Below are positions 31,047 through 48,473 of a DNA stretch of 64,000 nucleotides, piece after piece. The first letter of the stretch is position 1; every line of letters begins with the position of its first letter. A program made the translations under genes and the position numbers. The notes under the pieces were generated by a model. The model did not search any database, had not been told where the DNA came from, and saw nothing but the letters and a program-made list of their open reading frames with translations. Origin of the DNA: Acidilobaceae archaeon (GTDB taxonomy: Archaea; Thermoproteota; Thermoprotei_A; Sulfolobales; Acidilobaceae); the NCBI GenBank assembly GCA_027037535.1, contig JALVZQ010000003.1:62001-126000 (forward strand), in the 5' to 3' direction.

Positions 31047-31227
31047 ACTATTTCACCGCATTAACGGGGGCTTGCTCGACTGTTTTAAAGCTATCTATAC
31101 AACTTGTATTATTACTATAAGGACAGCGCAGGGATATTATTCCCTAAATACTCCAAATATAATTGACGATAGACAATCCCTCCTAAGCATCCAAGGGGAA
31201 AGCCCAGACAGAGGGGTGTTAGTAGAA

Positions 31228-33249
31228 ATGGCAGGACTCGAGAACATAAAGACAATAACCGTTGTCGGAGCAGGCACTATGGGTCATGGAATAGCCGAGG
31301 TAGCAGCAATAGCCGGCTATAACGTGTACCTAGTAGACATAAAGCAAGAGTTCCTCGACAACGCAGTTGAAAAAATCAAGTGGAGCCTCAAAAAACTATA
31401 CGAGAAAGGCGTGGTAAGAGAACCTGTAGAAACAGTTCTCTCAAGGATAAAGACCGTTGTAAACTTGAATCCAGACGGTTCATATACAGAGGAGTTCGCG
31501 AAGGTATTGAAGGAAACAGACTTCATGATAGAGGCTATTATCGAGCGACTAGACATAAAACAGAAGCTCTTCGCATTCGCAGACGAGCACGCTCCCGAGC
31601 ACGCAATCCTAGCAACAAACACGAGCAGCCTCCCCATAACCGAAATAGCCGCCGCCACCAAGAGGCCTGAGAAAGTCGTAGGAATGCACTTCTTCAACCC
31701 ACCGCCACTAATGCCACTAGTGGAAGTAATAAAGGGCGAGAAGACAAGCGACGAAACCGTAGAAATAACTGTTGCACTATCGAAGAAGTTCGGTAAACAA
31801 CCAGTAGTAGTAAAGAAAGACGTACCGGGATTCATAGTAAACAGGATCCTGGGAAGATTCATCAACACAGCATGCAATCTAGTAGCCAAGGGTAAAGCTA
31901 CAATCGAGGAAGTAGACGCCACAGTAAAGTACGTGCTAGGACTACCAATGGGCATCTTCGAGCTATCCGACTACAGCGGAATAGACGTATTCTACTACGT
32001 GTTCCAAGCAATGGCCGAGAGAGGATTCAAGACAACGCCATGCCCGCTCCTAAAGGAGAAATTCGAGAAGAAAGAGTTCGGAATGAAGACAGGCAAAGGA
32101 TTCTACACGTATCCAGCACCAGGAAAATACGCTAGACCAAACATACCCAAAGACCTCGCAGGCAAAGTAGACCCAGTACTCTTACTAGCACCAGCAGTAA
32201 ACGAGGCAGCATGGCTCCTCGAGAACGACGTGGCCACAAAAGAAGATATTGACAAGGCAGTAAAACTAGGACTAGGATGGCCCAAGGGAGTACTAGAATT
32301 CGCTGACGAGTACGGAATCGACAAAATAGTAGAGGCTCTCAAAAAGCTAAAAGAAGAACTAGGCTTAGAAGAGATGGAGCCACAGCCACTACTCCTCAAA
32401 ATGGTGGAAGAAGGAAAACTAGGCCGCAAGACAGGCAAAGGCTTCTACGAGTATGGAGAAGTAGAAGAGATAAAGAAGAAGAACCTTGTAATAAGGATCG
32501 AGAAGCCAATAGCATGGATAGTCCTCAACAGGCCAAAGAGACTAAACGCGCTAAGCCCAGAGCTACTCAAAGAGCTAGGAGAGGCTCTCGACGAGCTAGA
32601 AGACAACAATGACGTAAGAGTAGTAATACTCAAGGGAGAAGGAAGAGCATTTAGTGCCGGAGCAGACGTAACAGCATTCGCAGGAGTAACCCCAATGGAC
32701 ATAGCAAAGTTCTCCAGGAGATTCCAGGAGCTAACTCTAAAGATGCAGTTCTACACAAAGCCAATCATAGCAGCACTACACGGCTACGTACTAGGAGGCG
32801 GACTCGAGATAGCAATGAGCACTGACATAAGGATAGCCGCCGAAGGAACAATGTTCGGACAACCAGAGATAAACCTAGGATTCATACCTGGCGCAGGAGG
32901 AACACAGAGACTACCCAGACTAGTAGGACGCGGACAGGCAAAGCTACTAATATTCTCGGGAGACATGATACCGGCAGACGAAGCACTAAGGATAGGACTC
33001 GTAGAGAAAGTAGTACCTCCAGAGAGACTAGAACAAGAAGCGAGAGCACTAGCACTCAAACTAGCAGAGAAGCCACCGCTGGCACTAATGGCCGCGAAAT
33101 ACGCCGTAGAATACGGACTAGAATCCAATATCTGGGCAGGACTCAGCCTAGAAGCACACCTATTCGGACTACTCTTCAGCACAGAAGACGTCATCGAGGG
33201 AGTAACAGCATTCCTAGAAAAGAGAAAGCCAAAGTTCAAAGGAAGGTAA
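31228..33249 (+). CDS. 3-Hydroxyacyl-CoA dehydrogenase / enoyl-CoA hydratase fusion
   Basis: A 673-residue bifunctional cytosolic enzyme. Residues 1-400 form the NAD-dependent dehydrogenase: VVGAGTMGHGIAE Rossmann loop (near 12), VVGMHFFNPPPLMPLVE with the catalytic histidine (near 150), and two C-terminal dimer domains with GRKTGKGFYEY-type motifs. Residues 418-673 are a crotonase: GRAFSAGADVTAFAG (near 470) and PEINLGFIPGAGGTQRLP (near 545). The order dehydrogenase-hydratase is that of the archaeal crotonyl-CoA hydratase/3-hydroxybutyryl-CoA dehydrogenase used in the dicarboxylate/4-hydroxybutyrate cycle of Desulfurococcales; fatty-acid breakdown is the alternative. ATG 31228 follows GGGGTG; the frame is open further up without support. 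Codon use suggests high expression. Confidence 0.92.
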   Translation: MAGLENIKTITVVGAGTMGHGIAEVAAIAGYNVYLVDIKQEFLDNAVEKIKWSLKKLYEKGVVREPVETVLSRIKTVVNLNPDGSYTEEFAKVLKETDFMIEAIIERLDIKQKLFAFADEHAPEHAILATNTSSLPITEIAAATKRPEKVVGMHFFNPPPLMPLVEVIKGEKTSDETVEITVALSKKFGKQPVVVKKDVPGFIVNRILGRFINTACNLVAKGKATIEEVDATVKYVLGLPMGIFELSDYSGIDVFYYVFQAMAERGFKTTPCPLLKEKFEKKEFGMKTGKGFYTYPAPGKYARPNIPKDLAGKVDPVLLLAPAVNEAAWLLENDVATKEDIDKAVKLGLGWPKGVLEFADEYGIDKIVEALKKLKEELGLEEMEPQPLLLKMVEEGKLGRKTGKGFYEYGEVEEIKKKNLVIRIEKPIAWIVLNRPKRLNALSPELLKELGEALDELEDNNDVRVVILKGEGRAFSAGADVTAFAGVTPMDIAKFSRRFQELTLKMQFYTKPIIAALHGYVLGGGLEIAMSTDIRIAAEGTMFGQPEINLGFIPGAGGTQRLPRLVGRGQAKLLIFSGDMIPADEALRIGLVEKVVPPERLEQEARALALKLAEKPPLALMAAKYAVEYGLESNIWAGLSLEAHLFGLLFSTEDVIEGVTAFLEKRKPKFKGR

Positions 33250-33415: not shown

Positions 33416-35020
33416 ATGCTATACGATGAAGAGCTCGTCGAGGTATCCCCGCCCTGGAGCGGAATCGTTCTCACACTCCTAGCAAGAGGAACAGAACTGC
33501 TCCAAGACAGATCACTAGTATTCGACAAACAATGGAGACCAAAGATACAGATGAAACCCCTACTAGGAACACGCTACGTAGCAGAAGTATACATCGATAC
33601 AGGAAGCAGAAGTGCCCGAAGCACAAGCGGAGTAGAAGAAGGATTCATACTCAAAACCAGTATCCTGCTAAGATACTGGAATGGAGAGACACTAGAAGAA
33701 AGAATACTCTATCCCTATAGTAGGGGGAGCCCTCCCTTCCTACTAGTGAGAGGAGACGACCGGAAACGACAGGCCAGCCTATACGTTGCAGAGCTCGCAA
33801 TGATACTATCAATGCTACAAGAAACCCCGCCACTCGAAGCAGAGCTAGACGGGAGGAGACTAATAGTAAGACACGGAAGCCTACTACAAATACTAGGAAC
33901 ATACTTTAACCCGGTATTCGACCTCGAACGAGAAAGCGCAGAAGCCGTACTCCTATACACGGGACTAGATCCGAGAACAACGATAGAACTCATACGTTCC
34001 GCAACCGTGAAACGAGGAGCAACAGAAAAAGTAAACCCGGGACTCCTGGCGGCGGCAATCCTAGGTCAAATAAAGAATGTTGCCCGGAGAGAACGCCACA
34101 TGGTCATAGGCCTAACAGAGGATGTCTCGAGGGGGAGACACTTATTGGCGAAGGTCCTAGCAGAATCCATAAAGGCAAGCGTAGTAACTATAGGTGTAGC
34201 GAACAGTCAACGAAGACAATTCAATCCAGGCATACTACTAGAGGAAGCAGTAAGAGACATAAGACACTGCTTGGAGGACCTAGGCATATCATCCCTACCA
34301 CACTTCATGGGAGACGCCCACACGTATCTCCGCCAGGTAATAGATAGATCAATAGAGTCCAGAGAAAACACTGACCTCGAAGACATAATCACCGGCCTAG
34401 AGGTAGAGGATCTCTTAGAACGAATATACGAGCGACAAGTACTAAACAACTTTAACCTAGCAAGCGACAGCCACTTCATACTATTATACAATTATCTCTA
34501 TGGAGGTACAGGAAACGGAGAACTAGAAGCGTCCAGTACCGTAGAACTAGATAAGAGCTGGCTATACAGTAGAAGATTCCTTAAATCGTACAATAAAAGG
34601 CTAAAGGGAGCCGAACCCTCCATAACATTAGATGAACTACTAGATCATACATCGGGCGTCAAGCTAAGATACCTCCTAACACAAGCAATACCAGACTGCA
34701 AAGAGATACGAGAAAACGCTGAACGCTTAGGCATAGATAGAAGGCTCCTAGCCGAGCTCATAAGGGTGATTCCACCGATCAGAGTAGAATATTTCTCGGA
34801 GACAACAGACGTCTCTGAGGTCCTAGACCACATAGTCAGCCAAGCAATGGTGACAAGCTACGGAGTCCCACCCCAATTACTCGTAGTCGACTCTAGGAGT
34901 AGAATAAACGAGTGGGAATACGGGGCACTAGCAGGCCTCCTCGAAAGCCTAAGTAGACGGGCTACTCCCTACTCAACATTTATAAGAGATTTTTCTGTTA
35001 GACGCCACCATCTATTATAG
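33416..35020 (+). CDS. NurA-like nuclease-domain protein
   Basis: A 534-residue protein directly upstream of a HerA-like ATPase gene, the usual place of NurA, the 5'-3' nuclease that works with HerA in DNA end resection. The C-terminal part supports this: IPPIRVEYFSETTDVSEVLD, QAMVTSYGVPPQLLVVDSRS, then a helix of GALAGLL type, as in NurA. The N-terminal Asp motif is divergent; RYVAEVYIDTGSRSA (near residue 52) is the best candidate. It is longer than standard archaeal NurA (about 330-450). No mre11/rad50 is nearby, so this may be a second, specialised pair. GGAG precedes the ATG. The stop is 14 bases before the ATPase start. Confidence 0.62.
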   Translation: MLYDEELVEVSPPWSGIVLTLLARGTELLQDRSLVFDKQWRPKIQMKPLLGTRYVAEVYIDTGSRSARSTSGVEEGFILKTSILLRYWNGETLEERILYPYSRGSPPFLLVRGDDRKRQASLYVAELAMILSMLQETPPLEAELDGRRLIVRHGSLLQILGTYFNPVFDLERESAEAVLLYTGLDPRTTIELIRSATVKRGATEKVNPGLLAAAILGQIKNVARRERHMVIGLTEDVSRGRHLLAKVLAESIKASVVTIGVANSQRRQFNPGILLEEAVRDIRHCLEDLGISSLPHFMGDAHTYLRQVIDRSIESRENTDLEDIITGLEVEDLLERIYERQVLNNFNLASDSHFILLYNYLYGGTGNGELEASSTVELDKSWLYSRRFLKSYNKRLKGAEPSITLDELLDHTSGVKLRYLLTQAIPDCKEIRENAERLGIDRRLLAELIRVIPPIRVEYFSETTDVSEVLDHIVSQAMVTSYGVPPQLLVVDSRSRINEWEYGALAGLLESLSRRATPYSTFIRDFSVRRHHLL

Positions 35021-35034
35021 AGGTGTTATAGGGC

Positions 35035-37257
35035 TTGAATAACGAGACACCGATAACAGGCTTCACAACAAGCATACGCGAATATACACGAGTAGAAGGC
35101 ATAATCCTAAGACCAGCAGAGGCGATAGTAAAATATGGCACAATAGTCGAGATAGAAGACAACAGCCAGAGAAAACGATACCTTGCAATGATCGTGAACG
35201 TAGAAGAAGAAACCCCACATCCCGCGCTCGACGTTGAAAGACTAAGAAAACTCTACCAGAGCCTCAGCGAGACGAGCCTCCAAGACGCGAACCGCGTACT
35301 CCTAGAACTACTCAGCCCAACACACCAGCTTATAAAGTGGAGCAGTATAATGAAAGTAGAGCTAAGAGTACTCGGAGAAATAACACGTCACCACGACCTC
35401 GAACGCTTATCACCGTACGAGAGACCACCAAGACCCTTCTCAAGTATTATAGAACCGGACCCTATAAGATTAGAGAAAATTATCCATCATAGTCTCGGCA
35501 AAGACTACGAGTTAAAAGGTATTTATATAGGAAAACTAAGTCTAGCCGATCAAGTTAGAATTTATATTAACCCAGAAAAATTAAACACGCACCTGAGTAT
35601 TTTAGCTCAAACAGGAGGCGGTAAAACAGAGACAGTAAAAAGGTTGGTCTTTGAGATAAGTCAGAGAAGAAACCTCATGCATAAACCTAAGGGTGGAATA
35701 GTAGTTTTCGACATTGCAGGGGAGTACACAGGTTACCCCTACGATGACCGCAATACTGTTTTTCTACTAGATGCTGTACTGGATCCAAGTAGCTACAATT
35801 CTCTTGTGGAGGATCCGTCTATTCCAGAAAAAGTAACTATTATTGTACCTTATGAGACTACAAGAGGCCATTGGGAGGAAACTAGAAAAGACATATGGAA
35901 CAATATGAGAGACCTTGCGTGTAAACTGAGTTCTAGATTGGACGAGGACGTAGACTTACTAGTCGTATTCCCTTATGAACGATTGTATGAAAGAATAAGC
36001 CCCTATTCCTGTCATACATATAATGCGAGTGGGAATAAGGCAAAAATTAATTACAATAATTTTGCAAGCATAGTAGAAAGTTCTAGGTTTCTAGTATTAG
36101 GTATGCCGCTCCCAGGATTTATGAATATGGACGCAATGATAGAATTAAGCGGTACAAAGAGCGAGTATTTCGAGTTAATAATAAACGAGATTGCAGGTAT
36201 ACTTGATCTATACCACGGGGAGGATATATATGGAGTAGGATTATTGTACTCTATATTTAGAAATTGGGATAATTTAGAGAAAGTATCTAATGTTAAAGAA
36301 ACTGTTCAAAGAATACTGAAAATTTTCTTAATCACTTGCGAATTAAATGTGCCGGATCCTATAAAACTTAGGGAATTATTATCGAATAAAGAAATAACTA
36401 ATAAATACGGATTACCTTCAAAGGATATTATGATTAATTTACTCCTTGACAGAAGAAATAAGGATCTATACTACTCATTGTTTAGATATATTGCATGGAA
36501 AGCTTACAAGTGGAAAGTTGCTGATCCCTTCATGGATAACGAGACATCTGCCATTTGTAAAGTTTTAAACGACGATCGCTATTCAGATAGATTAAAACAA
36601 ATGCTTAGCGATCTATTGTTCTATGTGAGTTCAAAAACGATAAAAATAGATAAGAATACTAGATATGGTATAGTTAGAAGATTGAAAAAACTATCAACAA
36701 TGACGAGCGATATGATAGACACCATAGTATTTGACATACTAATGAATAGATTAATGACAGGATTTTCTATTGTTCATTTAGCTCCTCCAAGCGTCGGAGA
36801 CGTAGACACTTTCCTCGGATTAACGATAAGAAGATTATTCTACAGGCATGCCAGAAATTATGATCCCGACAGATTAACGGTTCTTGTAGTAGAGGAGGCC
36901 CATAACCTGGCACCGGCAGGAATATCGAAATCCAGCAAAGACGCTCTCTTACGCGTAGCACGGGAAGGGAGAAAATGGGGCCTGAGCATGTGGCTAGTAA
37001 CACAAAGGCCAAGCTTCGTAGACTCAAGTATACTAAGCCAAACAGCGACAAGCATACTGCTGAGAACAACTAATCCCGAGGATCTGGCAAGCATAAAGCG
37101 GGGCGTCGAAAGCGCTGCTGCAGAGATAATAGATAGGCTCCCCGAGCTTGAGCCGAGCAGAGGCGAAGCCCTACTCACAGGTCTGGCCGCTCCAGAGAGG
37201 AGGATCCCACTACTGATAATGGTGGAAAGGCTAAGACCTGTGAGAAGACAACAATAA
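35035..37257 (+). CDS. HerA-like hexameric DNA translocase/ATPase
   Basis: A 740-residue HerA/FtsK-superfamily ATPase. It has an N-terminal HAS-barrel-like part, Walker A ILAQTGGGKTETVKRL (near residue 190), a GIVVFDIAGEYTGYP strand (near 220), Walker B LTVLVVEEAHNLAPAG (near 615), the sensor LSMWLVTQRPSFVDSSIL (near 650) and the arginine-bearing tail SILLRTTNPEDL. HerA pumps DNA and pairs with NurA, whose likely gene precedes it by 14 bases. It is longer than usual HerA (about 500-600), the extra length lying between Walker A and B. Base composition is mosaic: ends match the genome, the centre (about 35450-36880) is strongly AT-rich. Start is TTG with GAGGTG upstream. Confidence 0.85.
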   Translation: MNNETPITGFTTSIREYTRVEGIILRPAEAIVKYGTIVEIEDNSQRKRYLAMIVNVEEETPHPALDVERLRKLYQSLSETSLQDANRVLLELLSPTHQLIKWSSIMKVELRVLGEITRHHDLERLSPYERPPRPFSSIIEPDPIRLEKIIHHSLGKDYELKGIYIGKLSLADQVRIYINPEKLNTHLSILAQTGGGKTETVKRLVFEISQRRNLMHKPKGGIVVFDIAGEYTGYPYDDRNTVFLLDAVLDPSSYNSLVEDPSIPEKVTIIVPYETTRGHWEETRKDIWNNMRDLACKLSSRLDEDVDLLVVFPYERLYERISPYSCHTYNASGNKAKINYNNFASIVESSRFLVLGMPLPGFMNMDAMIELSGTKSEYFELIINEIAGILDLYHGEDIYGVGLLYSIFRNWDNLEKVSNVKETVQRILKIFLITCELNVPDPIKLRELLSNKEITNKYGLPSKDIMINLLLDRRNKDLYYSLFRYIAWKAYKWKVADPFMDNETSAICKVLNDDRYSDRLKQMLSDLLFYVSSKTIKIDKNTRYGIVRRLKKLSTMTSDMIDTIVFDILMNRLMTGFSIVHLAPPSVGDVDTFLGLTIRRLFYRHARNYDPDRLTVLVVEEAHNLAPAGISKSSKDALLRVAREGRKWGLSMWLVTQRPSFVDSSILSQTATSILLRTTNPEDLASIKRGVESAAAEIIDRLPELEPSRGEALLTGLAAPERRIPLLIMVERLRPVRRQQ

Positions 37258-44084: not shown

Positions 44085-44588
44085 CTATATTCCTAGCCTT
44101 ACTTTAGCGGCCAATAGTAACAGTATTGTCTTAACGTCTTCGATCTCTCCCCTCTCTATCATTTTGAGGGCTTCATCTAGCGGTATTTTGACCAGTCGGA
44201 TTATTTCATGCGGCTCTGGACTACTCTCTCCTGGCTCCGGGTCTGGGGCTAGGAAGAGGTATAGTTTCTCGGTGGAGTAACCTGGCGAGACATATCCTGA
44301 TCCTACTGGTATGAGTTGGGTCGCCCTGTATCCTGTTTCTTCCTTGAGCTCTCTTCGAGCTGCTTCCTCGGGGTTCTCTCCCTTATCGATGACCCCTGCG
44401 GGAGCCTCTAGAATATACTTGTCTATTACTGGCCTGTACTGTCTTATCAACACAACGTCCTTCCCTATTACTGGGAGAACGGCTACTGCGTTAGGAAATA
44501 TTACCTGATCCACTATCATATGGTGGCCGTTTGGGAGAACCTTTTCCTCTGCCCGGAAAAGAACCCTTCTACCCTTACACTCAACCAT
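44085..44588 (-). CDS. NUDIX hydrolase (ADP-ribose pyrophosphatase-like)
   Basis: A 167-residue NUDIX protein. The box GVIDKGENPEEAARRELKEE TG lies near residue 62 and the ADP-ribose-type proline-bearing segment (APDPEPGESSPEP) follows near 112. QVIFPNAVAVLPVIGKDVVL and QYRPVIDKYILEAPAG are typical of ADPRase. Its ATG overlaps the hmgA stop, so it is the last gene of the mevalonate operon; why a NUDIX enzyme belongs there is unclear. Confidence 0.9.
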   Translation of the reverse strand: MVECKGRRVLFRAEEKVLPNGHHMIVDQVIFPNAVAVLPVIGKDVVLIRQYRPVIDKYILEAPAGVIDKGENPEEAARRELKEETGYRATQLIPVGSGYVSPGYSTEKLYLFLAPDPEPGESSPEPHEIIRLVKIPLDEALKMIERGEIEDVKTILLLLAAKVRLGI

Positions 44589-45822
44589 CCTTCTTCACCT
44601 CTCTTCTTCCATAGAGTCGATGGCCACGTGCCATGTGTCCTGCTGCCTGCGCGGCGAGTATATTTAATTCGCCGGCGAGCACGGTCGCCGCTATGATTTC
44701 AGCGAATTTTAACGCGTTCGTGCCCGGTGGGTTTCCTCCACCTGCGACTCCTAGGAGCGAGAGAGCCTCTCTCTGGGTTGGAAGCCAAGTTCCTCCTCCT
44801 ACAGTCCCGATCTCGAGGCTCGGCATGGTTACGCTGATGTAGAGGTCCTCGCCTCTTACCTCTGTCCATGTATAGGTGATGCTGGATTCTACTATTTGGG
44901 CCATGTCTTGCCCGGTTGCCAGGAAGATACCTGCTATTATGTTGGCTGCGTGTGCGTTGAACGTTGGGCTTCCAGCTGCGGCGCTACCCAGAAGGTTTTT
45001 CACGGTGTTTAGCTCGTGTATCTCTTCGACGCTTGCCTTGAGGGTTTGTTCTACGATTTCTTTCTTTACTATTGCCTCTGCGACCACGTATTTTCCTCTG
45101 CCAAGGATACGGTTGATAGCGGCAGGCTTCTTGTCGGAGCACATGTTTCCGCTGACGCTTATACAGTCTATTCTCCCGGGATAGTTCTTTTCGATATATC
45201 TGCAGAGTTCTTCTGTGGCGATCGTTATCATGTTCATTCCCATAGCGTCTCCTGTATGGTAGCGGAACCGTATCCATACGATGTTCCCCACGATGTAGGG
45301 GTAGAAGTCTATTAGTTTGCCGTGGCGCGTGATCCTGGATATAACACTGTGGAATGATTCCTTGTTTTCTTCTATCCACTCCACGAGTGACAGGGCCTCA
45401 TCAATACTAGGCGTCCATATGACTGGTGCCCTGGTCATCCCGTCCTTTACTATTCGTGTGGTTACTCCCCCACTGCTCGTTAGGGCTTTAACCCCCCGGT
45501 TAACACTCGCTACCAGTGCACCCTCAGTAGTCGCGAGAGGAACATAGTATTCTCCACGAGCATAAGTTCCCTTAACCAGTAATGGGCCAACTACTCCGAG
45601 AGGCACCTGTACGGCTCCAATAGGGTTCTCGATGTTACGGCCGAACACGTCTTCAAAGTCAATAATCGTACTAGCTATGGCTGAAAGACCTATACCGTAT
45701 TTACGTTCGAGAAAAAGACGTCTAACGAGGGCGGCGAGGTTCGCGTTTCCAAGCTCCTTCTCGAGACGGGAAAGGGTTATTTCGCCTGATTCAAGCTTCT
45801 CCAGTATCTTGTCCAGCTCCAC
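44581..45822 (-). CDS. hmgA: 3-Hydroxy-3-methylglutaryl-CoA reductase (class I)
   Basis: Reduces HMG-CoA to mevalonate with two NADPH, the committed step of archaeal lipid synthesis. About 413 residues. Catalytic residues are visible: Glu in ENPIGAVQVPLG (near 67), Lys in CSDKKPAAIN (near 230), Asp in GQDMAQIVES (near 310) and His in AAGHMARGHRLYGR near the C-terminus. MGMNMITIATE and GTVGGGTWLPTQ are further class I signatures. GTG 45822 follows GGGTG; a GTG at 45831 adds three residues. It overlaps the DUF35 gene upstream and the NUDIX gene downstream. Confidence 0.97.
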   Translation of the reverse strand: MELDKILEKLESGEITLSRLEKELGNANLAALVRRLFLERKYGIGLSAIASTIIDFEDVFGRNIENPIGAVQVPLGVVGPLLVKGTYARGEYYVPLATTEGALVASVNRGVKALTSSGGVTTRIVKDGMTRAPVIWTPSIDEALSLVEWIEENKESFHSVISRITRHGKLIDFYPYIVGNIVWIRFRYHTGDAMGMNMITIATEELCRYIEKNYPGRIDCISVSGNMCSDKKPAAINRILGRGKYVVAEAIVKKEIVEQTLKASVEEIHELNTVKNLLGSAAAGSPTFNAHAANIIAGIFLATGQDMAQIVESSITYTWTEVRGEDLYISVTMPSLEIGTVGGGTWLPTQREALSLLGVAGGGNPPGTNALKFAEIIAATVLAGELNILAAQAAGHMARGHRLYGRREVKKDG

Positions 45823-46225
45823 TACCTGCACCCAGCACTGGGCGGAACTTCACGCCATAAGTAATTATACCTGTATCACTCGTCTCACTTATCTTTCGTA
45901 CAACGGCTTCGACCTCTAGGCCTGTGCTTAGCTCTCCTGGCAATACATCGGTTAGCTCTGCGACGATGCGTACACCGTTGATATTTACTAGGCCGACTAT
46001 TATGGGGGCGTTTAGCCTGTTATCTCCTGGAACACTATATATTACGCTATAGCTCTCTAGTATGCCTCTCCTCGGGAGCTGTACCTCTTCTAGACTATTG
46101 CTCCCACAGTAGGGGCAACTTGTCCGTGGAGGATAGTGGATCTTGCCACACTCCTTGCACCTAGCACCTATAAGCCTGTAGCGGGGTATTCTCCTCCTCC
46201 ACCATACTGGAAGACTCCTCGTCAT
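45791..46225 (-). CDS. DUF35 OB-fold/zinc-ribbon scaffold of the HMGS-thiolase complex
   Basis: A 144-residue protein: an N-terminal rubredoxin-like zinc ribbon (CKECGKIHYPPRTSCPYCGS, residues 23-42) and a C-terminal OB fold (LESYSVIYSVP, IIVGLVNINGVRIVAEL). DUF35 proteins hold acetoacetyl-CoA thiolase and HMG-CoA synthase together in the archaeal complex that channels the intermediate. The gene lies between thiolase and hmgA in the same operon, 14 bases after the thiolase gene, which fits that role. GGTGAC lies eight bases before the ATG. Confidence 0.9.
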   Translation of the reverse strand: MTRSLPVWWRRRIPRYRLIGARCKECGKIHYPPRTSCPYCGSNSLEEVQLPRRGILESYSVIYSVPGDNRLNAPIIVGLVNINGVRIVAELTDVLPGELSTGLEVEAVVRKISETSDTGIITYGVKFRPVLGAGSGAGQDTGEA

Positions 46226-46239
46226 AGACCAGTCACCTC

Positions 46240-47382
46240 CTATCCCTTCACCTTCCTGAGCAATGCTATCCTTGAACTTGACCCTGCAGCATTAATGGAA
46301 ACAATCATTCCAGTCTCTTCATCTCCCCGCTTTACTCCCTGCCAGGTTCCTGCCAGTATCCGTGAGACCTCTACGAGCTTGTATACGTCTGTGGCTCCTA
46401 TCGGGTGGCCTCTAGCCTTTAGTCCACCGCTTGGATTGACTAGTGGTCCCTCGCCCTCAGCCGAGAAGTAGCCCTCTGCCACTAGCTTAGCGGATTCTCC
46501 TTTCTCTGCCAGGCCCAGGGTTTCCAGTTCTAGGAGACCATATATCGAGAAGCTATCGTGGAGCTCGATCACGTCTATCTTCTCGAGCCCGCCTAGCCTG
46601 CCTAGAGCTGTTCTAAGGCTCTCGAGGTCGAGGGGATCTTCTCTGAGCGCAGGGCTGGGCATTCCCGTTGCTGATATTACTGATTCGATCTCGGCGAGCG
46701 GTCTTCCCTCAAGCTCGTCCCCGTTCTCTAATACTATTGCGGCGGCTCCGTCTCCTAGTGGATAGGCGTCTAGTAGTGTGATTGGCTCGGCTATGGGCAT
46801 GGCTGTCATGACTTTTTCTGGGGCGACTGCGAAGGGCAGCATTGCGTGGGGGTTGTTCTTGGCGTGCATATGCATCATAGCGGGCCAGTACGCTAGGGTG
46901 AGCCTGTCGACTTCGTACTTCTCCATGTATAGCCTCATCAGGAGGGCGGCGATACCCGCATGCCCTATATTATAGTATGCGTCGCTCTCAGTATCGTACA
47001 GTGCCTGCAGCATCACGTATGTTGGGCCGCTGGGATGCTCTGTCATCTTGTCAACTCCTATGAGTAGCACCCTGCTGGCCTCCTGGGATTTTATCAATGA
47101 AACAGCAGTTTCAAGGGCGGCTAGGCCCGAAGACTCGCCTGCCTCTACAGATAATGCCCTTACTCCGTGGAGTCCTAGGCTCGAGGCAATATAGCTGGCT
47201 AGGTCAAGTTGTGGGGCCTGGAGATACGATAAGCTACTGGCGACAATGACGAAGTCCACGTTATCAGAGCCGCTCTCGGCTAGTGCCTGTTTACCTGCCT
47301 GGAACGCTAGGTCTCTTACTCCGAGAGGATAATGACGGGCTATCTTGACCGCTCCCGTCCCAGTAATATATACTTTCACCAT
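46240..47382 (-). CDS. Thiolase-fold protein of the mevalonate operon, without cysteine
   Basis: A 380-residue thiolase-superfamily protein between HMG-CoA synthase and DUF35, the place of acetyl-CoA acetyltransferase. Thiolase landmarks are present: VLLIGVDKMTEHPSG, VIELHDSFSIYGLLELE (HDxF motif) and NPSGGLKARGHPIGATD with its histidine. The nucleophile position, normally Cys in VEAACASG, reads SVEAGESSG; HDCF reads HDSF; and the C-terminal segment reads SINAAGSSS. The whole chain contains no cysteine, so standard thiolase chemistry looks impossible. It may be a structural subunit, or have another activity. ATG 47382 follows GGGGTG; a GTG at 47394 is possible. Confidence 0.87.
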   Translation of the reverse strand: MVKVYITGTGAVKIARHYPLGVRDLAFQAGKQALAESGSDNVDFVIVASSLSYLQAPQLDLASYIASSLGLHGVRALSVEAGESSGLAALETAVSLIKSQEASRVLLIGVDKMTEHPSGPTYVMLQALYDTESDAYYNIGHAGIAALLMRLYMEKYEVDRLTLAYWPAMMHMHAKNNPHAMLPFAVAPEKVMTAMPIAEPITLLDAYPLGDGAAAIVLENGDELEGRPLAEIESVISATGMPSPALREDPLDLESLRTALGRLGGLEKIDVIELHDSFSIYGLLELETLGLAEKGESAKLVAEGYFSAEGEGPLVNPSGGLKARGHPIGATDVYKLVEVSRILAGTWQGVKRGDEETGMIVSINAAGSSSRIALLRKVKG

Positions 47383-47399
47383 ACTATCATTCACCCCTG

Positions 47400-48473
47400 T
47401 TATCCCCTGGGAAGCATTGTAAGGATCTTCCTATACCTCGTGTATAGAGCATAGTCTATTGTTTTCCGCCTAGCGAGATAGTCGTCGAAGCGCGGTGCTA
47501 GTCCCTGCTTCTCCTTGACTGCTTCTGTAACCCTCAGGATATAGGTATCGCTCCCAGCACCGCTTCCGAAGGGAGCCACGAGTATAAGGTCGCCGGGATC
47601 TGCCCTGTCGAGGACTCTAGCTAGTCCGAGAAGCGCGCTAGCGTTATAGGTGTTTCCTATGAATGGCGTGACTAGGCCTGGCTCTATTTGTTCCATTGTG
47701 AATCCGAGGCGTTTTCCTACTCTAACCGGGAACTTGCCATTTGGCTGGTGGAAGACGGCGTATTTGAAGTCTGAGGGCTTGTAGCCTGTTTCTTCGAGGA
47801 GGTTCTTTACACTGCTCATTATATGGTGGAAGTACGCGGGTTCTCCCGTGAATCCCTCTCCATGGCGTGGATAGGGTTTTAGGGCTCTTCTCCAGAAGTC
47901 GGGTGTGTCCGTTACATATGTGTATGTTGCCTCGAATACTGCAGCGGCTCCCTCCCTTGGCCCTACTATGAATGCTACTGCACCGCTAGAAGCCGTGAAC
48001 TCTAATACGTCTCCGGGCTCTGCTTGGGCCGTGTCGCTTCCTATAGCCATAGCGTATTTCATCATTCCACTTGATACTAGTCCTATTGATGCTCTGAGCC
48101 CTTCGCTACCGGCTCTGCACGCGAATTCTAGGTCGCTCGCCATCGTGACAGGCGTTATTCCGAGAGCTTCAGCGACAATAGTGGCCGAGGGCTTCACGGC
48201 GTACGGCTTAGATTCGCTTCCAAAGAATACTGCCTTTATCTCTGAAGGGTCTACCTTGGCCCTAAGCAAAGCATTGTATCCTGCCTCTATAGCCATAGTA
48301 GTTGAGTCTTCGTCGGGGCTGTCTACGCTCTTCTCTTTAACATTAAGGCCCTTGTACTGGTGGGGTGGCCAGCCCCAGACTCTTGCTATCTCTTCCATGG
48401 GGAGCCTCCACCGTGGGACATAGGCTCCCCATCCATGGATTCCAGTCCTTGATTCAGGACGTTCTTGGGTCAT
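47400..48473 (-). CDS. Hydroxymethylglutaryl-CoA synthase
   Basis: A 357-residue thiolase-fold enzyme that condenses acetyl-CoA and acetoacetyl-CoA to HMG-CoA. Archaeal HMGS motifs are GIHGWGAYVPRWRL at the start, MASDLEFACRAGSEGLRA with the catalytic cysteine (near residue 115), YAVFHQPNGKFPVRVGKRLG with the histidine (near 238) and FIGNTYNASALLGLARVL. GGAGGATTAAACA precedes the ATG. It is first of five overlapping or near-touching genes (HMGS, thiolase, DUF35, HMGR, NUDIX), divergent from the radical SAM gene. Confidence 0.95.
   Translation of the reverse strand: MTQERPESRTGIHGWGAYVPRWRLPMEEIARVWGWPPHQYKGLNVKEKSVDSPDEDSTTMAIEAGYNALLRAKVDPSEIKAVFFGSESKPYAVKPSATIVAEALGITPVTMASDLEFACRAGSEGLRASIGLVSSGMMKYAMAIGSDTAQAEPGDVLEFTASSGAVAFIVGPREGAAAVFEATYTYVTDTPDFWRRALKPYPRHGEGFTGEPAYFHHIMSSVKNLLEETGYKPSDFKYAVFHQPNGKFPVRVGKRLGFTMEQIEPGLVTPFIGNTYNASALLGLARVLDRADPGDLILVAPFGSGAGSDTYILRVTEAVKEKQGLAPRFDDYLARRKTIDYALYTRYRKILTMLPRG

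Follow-up and report, generated by a model that had tools for sequence, protein, structure and literature searches.

The mevalonate gene cluster of an Acidilobaceae archaeon encodes a thiolase-like protein whose catalytic cysteine has been replaced by glutamate. This protein is probably a pseudoenzyme subunit, kept in a complex with HMG-CoA synthase (HMGS) and a DUF35 protein, with a free thiolase making the acetoacetyl-CoA.

Mevalonate cluster and thiolase family assignment

The cluster lies in a 64,000-nucleotide stretch of DNA (hereafter, the window; contig C3:62001-126000) from a 1.65 Mb genome with a completeness of 99.9%. Its genes all share the minus strand, overlap or are separated by ≤14 bp, and follow in the order HMGS (47400–48473; NF003274, 555 bits for a cut-off of 244), thiolase-like protein (46240–47394), DUF35 protein (45791–46225; Pfam), HMG-CoA reductase (44581–45831; Pfam, and TIGR00533 over its cut-off), and, at the cluster end, a Nudix hydrolase (44085–44588; Pfam). 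The thiolase-like gene is thus located between HMGS and DUF35, as the initial annotation had reported. Its open reading frame yields 384 amino acids from a GTG start, or 380 from an ATG at 47382. The DUF35 protein, which combines a zinc ribbon with CxxC pairs and an OB fold, is the presumed third subunit.

The thiolase-like protein has the N- and C-terminal domains of the thiolase superfamily (Thiolase_C_1, E=1.9e-21; PF00108, 40.8 bits for a cut-off of 26.4; PF22691, 76.8 bits for a cut-off of 28), as well as its fold: an AlphaFold2 model built from a 39-sequence alignment (mean pLDDT 93.7, pTM 0.94) had as best Foldseek matches the thiolase subunit of the Methanothermococcus complex (6ET9_C, TM 0.93) and the Pyrococcus thiolase 7YVY. 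The NCBIfam match was to AcCoTHIOL_METTL (E=4e-53). The protein passed no thiolase equivalog cut-off in NCBIfam, scoring 180.6 bits vs 600 for the NF053570-type acetoacetyl-CoA thiolase, and HMGS was far above its own cut-off. Of the features of that thiolase type, the window protein has the HD and GHP histidines and lacks the cysteine nucleophile.

The Methanothermococcus thiolase/HMGS/DUF35 complex provides the closest comparison, since the same three proteins are encoded together in the window, where the complex is predicted from the genes. For all three, chains of 6ESQ were the best or second-best solved relatives; this structure was the best PDB match of HMGS (E=4e-122), and its chain 6ESQ_E matched the DUF35 protein (E=3.5e-26). 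CoA is stated to be bound in 6ESQ by residues from all three proteins, and the thiolase subunit has a catalytic Cys85, where the window protein has Glu87 (PMC6392133).

Replacement of the nucleophilic cysteine

In alignments, the nucleophile loop of the window protein reads VEAGESSG (residues 83–90; 47125–47148, minus strand), and Glu87 (codon 47134–47136) aligns with the cysteine of homologues reading VEAACGSGG or VEAACASG. This column contained Glu in 31 and Asp in 1 of the 32 aligned sequences of the window's family, in agreement with the replacement proposed by the initial annotation. The HDxF and GHP fold motifs were kept, also as proposed: His279 of the HDSF motif (residues 279–282; 46549–46560, minus strand) was found in 29/32 family sequences, and the catalytic-loop His330 of the GGLKARGHPIGAT motif (residues 323–335; 46390–46428, minus strand) in 31/32.

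Two further points of the initial annotation stood in part. The open reading frame does lack any cysteine, and 22 of the 32 family sequences likewise have none. However, the 14 other window proteins average 0.62% cysteine, so that only ~2.4 would be expected in the thiolase-like protein, and a total of zero is unremarkable (chance P(0) ~0.09); the striking feature is the lost nucleophile, not the total cysteine count. Similarly, the supposed HDCF motif does read HDSF, but this does not reflect the loss of a second required cysteine: of 78 Cys-bearing relatives, 68 have Ala at this position and only 5 have Cys, i.e., active-type relatives are mostly HDAF.

We then considered trivial explanations. 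Sequencing or assembly error, which the initial annotation had named as a threat to its claim, is excluded because the 32/32 family sequences agree with an independent Acidilobaceae MAG (L221; 97% identical protein), which also has Glu/Asp at this position. The nucleophile has not shifted to a nearby residue, as no new conserved cysteine takes over, and Ser89 is an ordinary loop serine conserved also in Cys-bearing relatives. Finally, the gene is not a pseudogene: the frame is open, and dN/dS between the window and L221 was 0.052 (0.009 for HMGS, 0.144 for DUF35), i.e., the thiolase-like gene is under purifying selection. Several positions are newly fixed in the Glu clade, including Arg20, Trp170, and Phe188 (script numbering minus 13), and the protein is therefore still constrained, but differently.

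Spread of the loss among relatives

We collected 190 relatives and read the nucleophile column in each. The loss was common in related species, a question the initial annotation had raised, with 104 Cys-less HMGS-linked copies across many families. Within the window's order, Cys-less copies at the HMGS locus were found in families f1, f2, f5, f6, f8, and f11 and in single f7 and f10 genomes; elsewhere in Thermoproteota, in f12, f19, f22, f27, f28, f33, and f35; and, beyond these, in a Bathyarchaeota MAG (L259) and an Odinarchaeia MAG (L252). Named records with Glu include Aeropyrum sp. (L229), Caldisphaera sp. (L227), and Zestosphaera tikiterensis (L264). In the family that includes Sulfolobus, the copy was Cys-less in each of the six genomes read. 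The cysteine was kept in Thermococci, Anaerolineae bacteria, Thermofilum, Methanomethylicus, most f7 genomes, and the unlinked f3, f4, and f9 copies.

On a tree of 90 rows, with motif columns removed and bootstrap support not fully settled, the Cys/non-Cys state required 7 changes, at least 6 of them forced by well-supported branches, a count that cannot separate gain from loss. Since characterised enzymes have the cysteine, it is the plausible ancestral state, and most of these changes were therefore taken as losses. Hence, we infer that the thiolase cysteine was lost repeatedly, in separate lineages.

The association with HMGS was constant after the loss. Each of the 104 archaeal-type Cys-less copies whose flanks could be read was beside HMGS, and Cys-bearing copies were divided between 40 linked and 33 unlinked, although near relatives are included in these counts, which thus do not represent independent events. 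Only 4 Cys-less proteins were unlinked, and these form a lineage of their own, in which Ser occupies the nucleophile position. Both forms occur together in several f2 genomes (G012, G085, and G147), where the HMGS-linked copy has Glu and a second, unlinked copy has Cys and is accompanied by a separate DUF35.

Two other arrangements were observed in this survey. One genome with the Glu type (G043) has a second HMGS-thiolase-DUF35 operon (L126) whose thiolase has the cysteine and HDCF. In addition, nine Anaerolineae/Chloroflexota MAGs (L257, L265, L270, L276, L285, L286, L289, L298, and L299) carry an archaeal-type HMGS-thiolase-DUF35 cluster with the cysteine kept, which suggests that this cluster was transferred to bacteria.

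Divergence of the thiolase next to an intact HMGS

Once the cysteine is absent, the remainder of the active site is less strictly conserved. The HD histidine was kept in 79/104 Cys-less linked copies vs 78/78 Cys-bearing ones, and the GHP histidine in 83/104 vs 77/78. Across Cys-less lineages, the residue replacing the cysteine was Glu, Asp, Gly, Gln, Leu, or a deletion. Thiolase-like proteins also diverge faster after the loss: at 70–75% HMGS identity, thiolase identity was 52% for Cys-less and 70% for Cys-bearing copies. HMGS itself is unaffected, as the initial annotation had recognised from its catalytic cysteine. The window HMGS has Glu87, Cys119, and His242 (HMGS numbering) intact, and the active-site Glu, Cys, and His were present in 175/175 sequences.

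Faster divergence would fit a changed role, such as a regulatory one, in which the subunit has left the HMGS complex and its gene position is a relic. We regard such a departure as very improbable, since the survey found archaeal-type Cys-less copies nowhere but beside HMGS, whereas Cys copies are often unlinked, and since the HMGS-thiolase-DUF35 neighbourhood recurs in lineages where the cysteine was lost separately.

Some linked copies depart further from the active form. The HMGS-linked thiolase at L049:2423-3586 (G018) has Leu for the nucleophilic Cys, Arg for the HD histidine, and Glu for the GHP histidine (GEV), an independent and more complete active-site loss. At L192 (G197) and L193 (G256), the nucleophile loop of the HMGS-linked thiolase-like protein is four residues shorter; the HMGS frame there is about 500 aa long and, because of this length, may be fused to another domain.

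Candidate sources of acetoacetyl-CoA

If the HMGS-linked subunit is inactive, another enzyme would have to supply acetoacetyl-CoA. The search for a cysteine-containing thiolase, advised by the initial annotation, identified a classical thiolase in the window genome (contig C3:23090-24295; TIGR01930 over its cut-off) with VCASG, NEAF, GHP, and CHG motifs, along with an SCP2-type thiolase with Cys. Based on profile searches, as for all genome-wide statements here, the classical thiolase was present in 35/36 family genomes. Among 30 genomes examined, each Cys-less one has another Cys thiolase, f8 excepted. In four genomes where the archaeal type was the only thiolase found (G002, G003, G007, and G065), the cysteine was present. 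A fused 3-hydroxyacyl-CoA dehydrogenase/enoyl-CoA hydratase in the window (31072–33249, plus strand; Pfam and NCBIfam) could be a second source of acetoacetyl-CoA. Supply through the 4-hydroxybutyrate cycle was rejected, as the window genome has no match to PF03241 (4-hydroxybutyryl-CoA dehydratase type).

The f8 exception consists of five genomes (G008, L127; G019, L124; G029, L125; G040, L128; and G048, L199) with HMGS and HMG-CoA reductase in which no Cys thiolase was found. Their only thiolases are a degraded HMGS-linked copy and a Ser-type protein (VENTSGSGG) with both active-site histidines intact, which makes the latter a candidate acetoacetyl-CoA source. ST0096 of Sulfolobus tokodaii (PDB 4YZO, TM 0.84), from the same VENTSGSGG lineage, is like the window protein a Cys-less archaeal thiolase-like protein; this lineage differs in having Ser at the nucleophile position, its histidines kept, no linkage to HMGS in the copies seen, and a separate clade of its own. 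Within the wider thiolase fold, DpsC uses a Ser nucleophile (Ser118-His297-Asp302) and self-acylates (PMC12664062).

The f8 genomes, and the place of the thiolase-like gene in the operon, could also be accounted for by a subunit that still makes acetoacetyl-CoA without a cysteine, either through a direct Claisen condensation in the CoA site or by using the HMGS cysteine to carry the acyl group. Yet thiolases are known to work through a Cys acyl-enzyme, a classical thiolase with its cysteine is retained by the window genome and almost every genome of the family, and the f8 linked copy is even more degraded than the window protein (HD histidine lost, nucleophile residue varied). Cysteine-free condensation is thus hard to credit.

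Other unassigned or atypical frames were noted in the window genome. On contig C8, L004:886-3233 encodes two neighbouring thiolase-like proteins with no obvious cysteine in the nucleophile region, and pairs of this kind were also found side by side in other families (L163, L172, and L173). In the window, a 534-aa open reading frame (33416–35020, plus strand) with no Pfam match at E≤1e-6 is located just upstream of the gene for a HerA-type ATPase (35035–37257).

Discussion

We propose that an archaeal acetoacetyl-CoA thiolase lost its nucleophile (Cys to Glu) in the ancestor of the window's family, and that the protein would then have been retained as one of the subunits of the HMGS complex. 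It would still bind HMGS and DUF35 as in Methanothermococcus, and contribute its share of a three-subunit CoA site, keeping HMGS stable or able to bind CoA esters, with acetoacetyl-CoA made by the classical thiolase and reaching HMGS by diffusion. If HMGS needs this CoA site, or the subunit for its stability, losing catalysis could be tolerated given a second thiolase, and losing the subunit could not. For the window organism, thiolase inactivity, complex formation, and CoA binding are all predicted from genes and models. This reading draws on the kept fold, the low dN/dS, the intact HMGS active site, the constant linkage, and the drifting catalytic histidines, as well as on the repeated losses, the faster divergence, and the classical thiolase in the same genome. 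The initial annotation had suggested a structural scaffold for channeling with another thiolase as supplier; most of this is well supported, but the channeling part needs qualifying because a dead thiolase makes nothing to channel. The feature retained could instead be the three-subunit CoA site.

A precedent for a dead yet needed subunit further supports this reading. In PhlABC of Pseudomonas protegens (PDB 5M3K), which has the same three-subunit architecture, the HMGS-like PhlA is missing the Cys and Glu, catalysis relies on PhlC residues alone, and active enzyme is obtained only when the whole operon is expressed, i.e., one dead member is needed for assembly (PMC6392133). The window cluster would be its mirror image: in PhlABC, the thiolase-like PhlC is active and PhlA dead, whereas in the window HMGS is intact and the thiolase predicted to be dead.

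Several observations nevertheless count against a pseudoenzyme. The near-invariant Glu (31/32) and the kept His279 and His330 appear to reflect more constraint than a pure scaffold needs, the Glu clade has its own new invariant residues, and in the five f8 genomes there is no Cys thiolase that could stand in for the lost activity. The first two would suit a neofunctionalised enzyme, in which the CoA site has been kept and Glu87, His279, and His330 catalyse a different acyl-CoA reaction there (for example, decarboxylation, hydrolysis, or an aldol-type step). Thiolase-fold decarboxylase variants of the KSQ type have Gln at the nucleophile position; the window protein has Glu there, and Gln was found in 1/104 linked Cys-less copies. 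A precedent is provided by the Sal/Ltp2 steroid aldolases, which like the window protein have a thiolase fold without nucleophilic Cys; they are bound to DUF35 partners, with Gly for the nucleophile and YDxY/F catalytic residues (PMC12329534). Unlike these aldolases, however, the window protein has HDSF instead of YDxY/F and is HMGS-linked. Moreover, Pfam annotation of the window revealed no new-pathway gene in the HMGS cluster, and both the replacing residue and the catalytic histidines vary freely in other Cys-less HMGS-linked lineages. For this last reason the different chemistry that the initial annotation had offered as its alternative is disfavoured, and neofunctionalisation seems unlikely. 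An enzyme in which Glu87, His279, and His330, at the CoA site, together form or convert acetoacetyl-CoA (or a similar acyl-CoA) with no Cys acyl-enzyme is more doubtful still; if true, it would be a thiolase-fold chemistry not described so far, and the five f8 genomes would be its natural companions.

Under the favoured pseudoenzyme reading, we rate the finding as a known complex subunit in pseudoenzyme form, recurrent and widespread. No report of Cys-less mevalonate-operon thiolases was found in the open literature, which, with subscription papers outside the search, is weak evidence of novelty. Genes of the Glu87 type are readily annotated as acetyl-CoA acetyltransferase and assumed to catalyse the first step of the mevalonate pathway in archaea; if our reading is right, this step is misassigned in pathway reconstructions for a large part of Thermoproteota. 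These lineages also offer a natural experiment on the thiolase/HMGS complex: thiolase catalysis would have been removed several times and the subunit kept, so that the subunit must do something besides making acetoacetyl-CoA. What the shared CoA site does structurally can thereby be told apart from substrate channeling. Overall, this suggests that, if the thiolase-like subunit is now structural, another enzyme would perform the first step of membrane-lipid synthesis.
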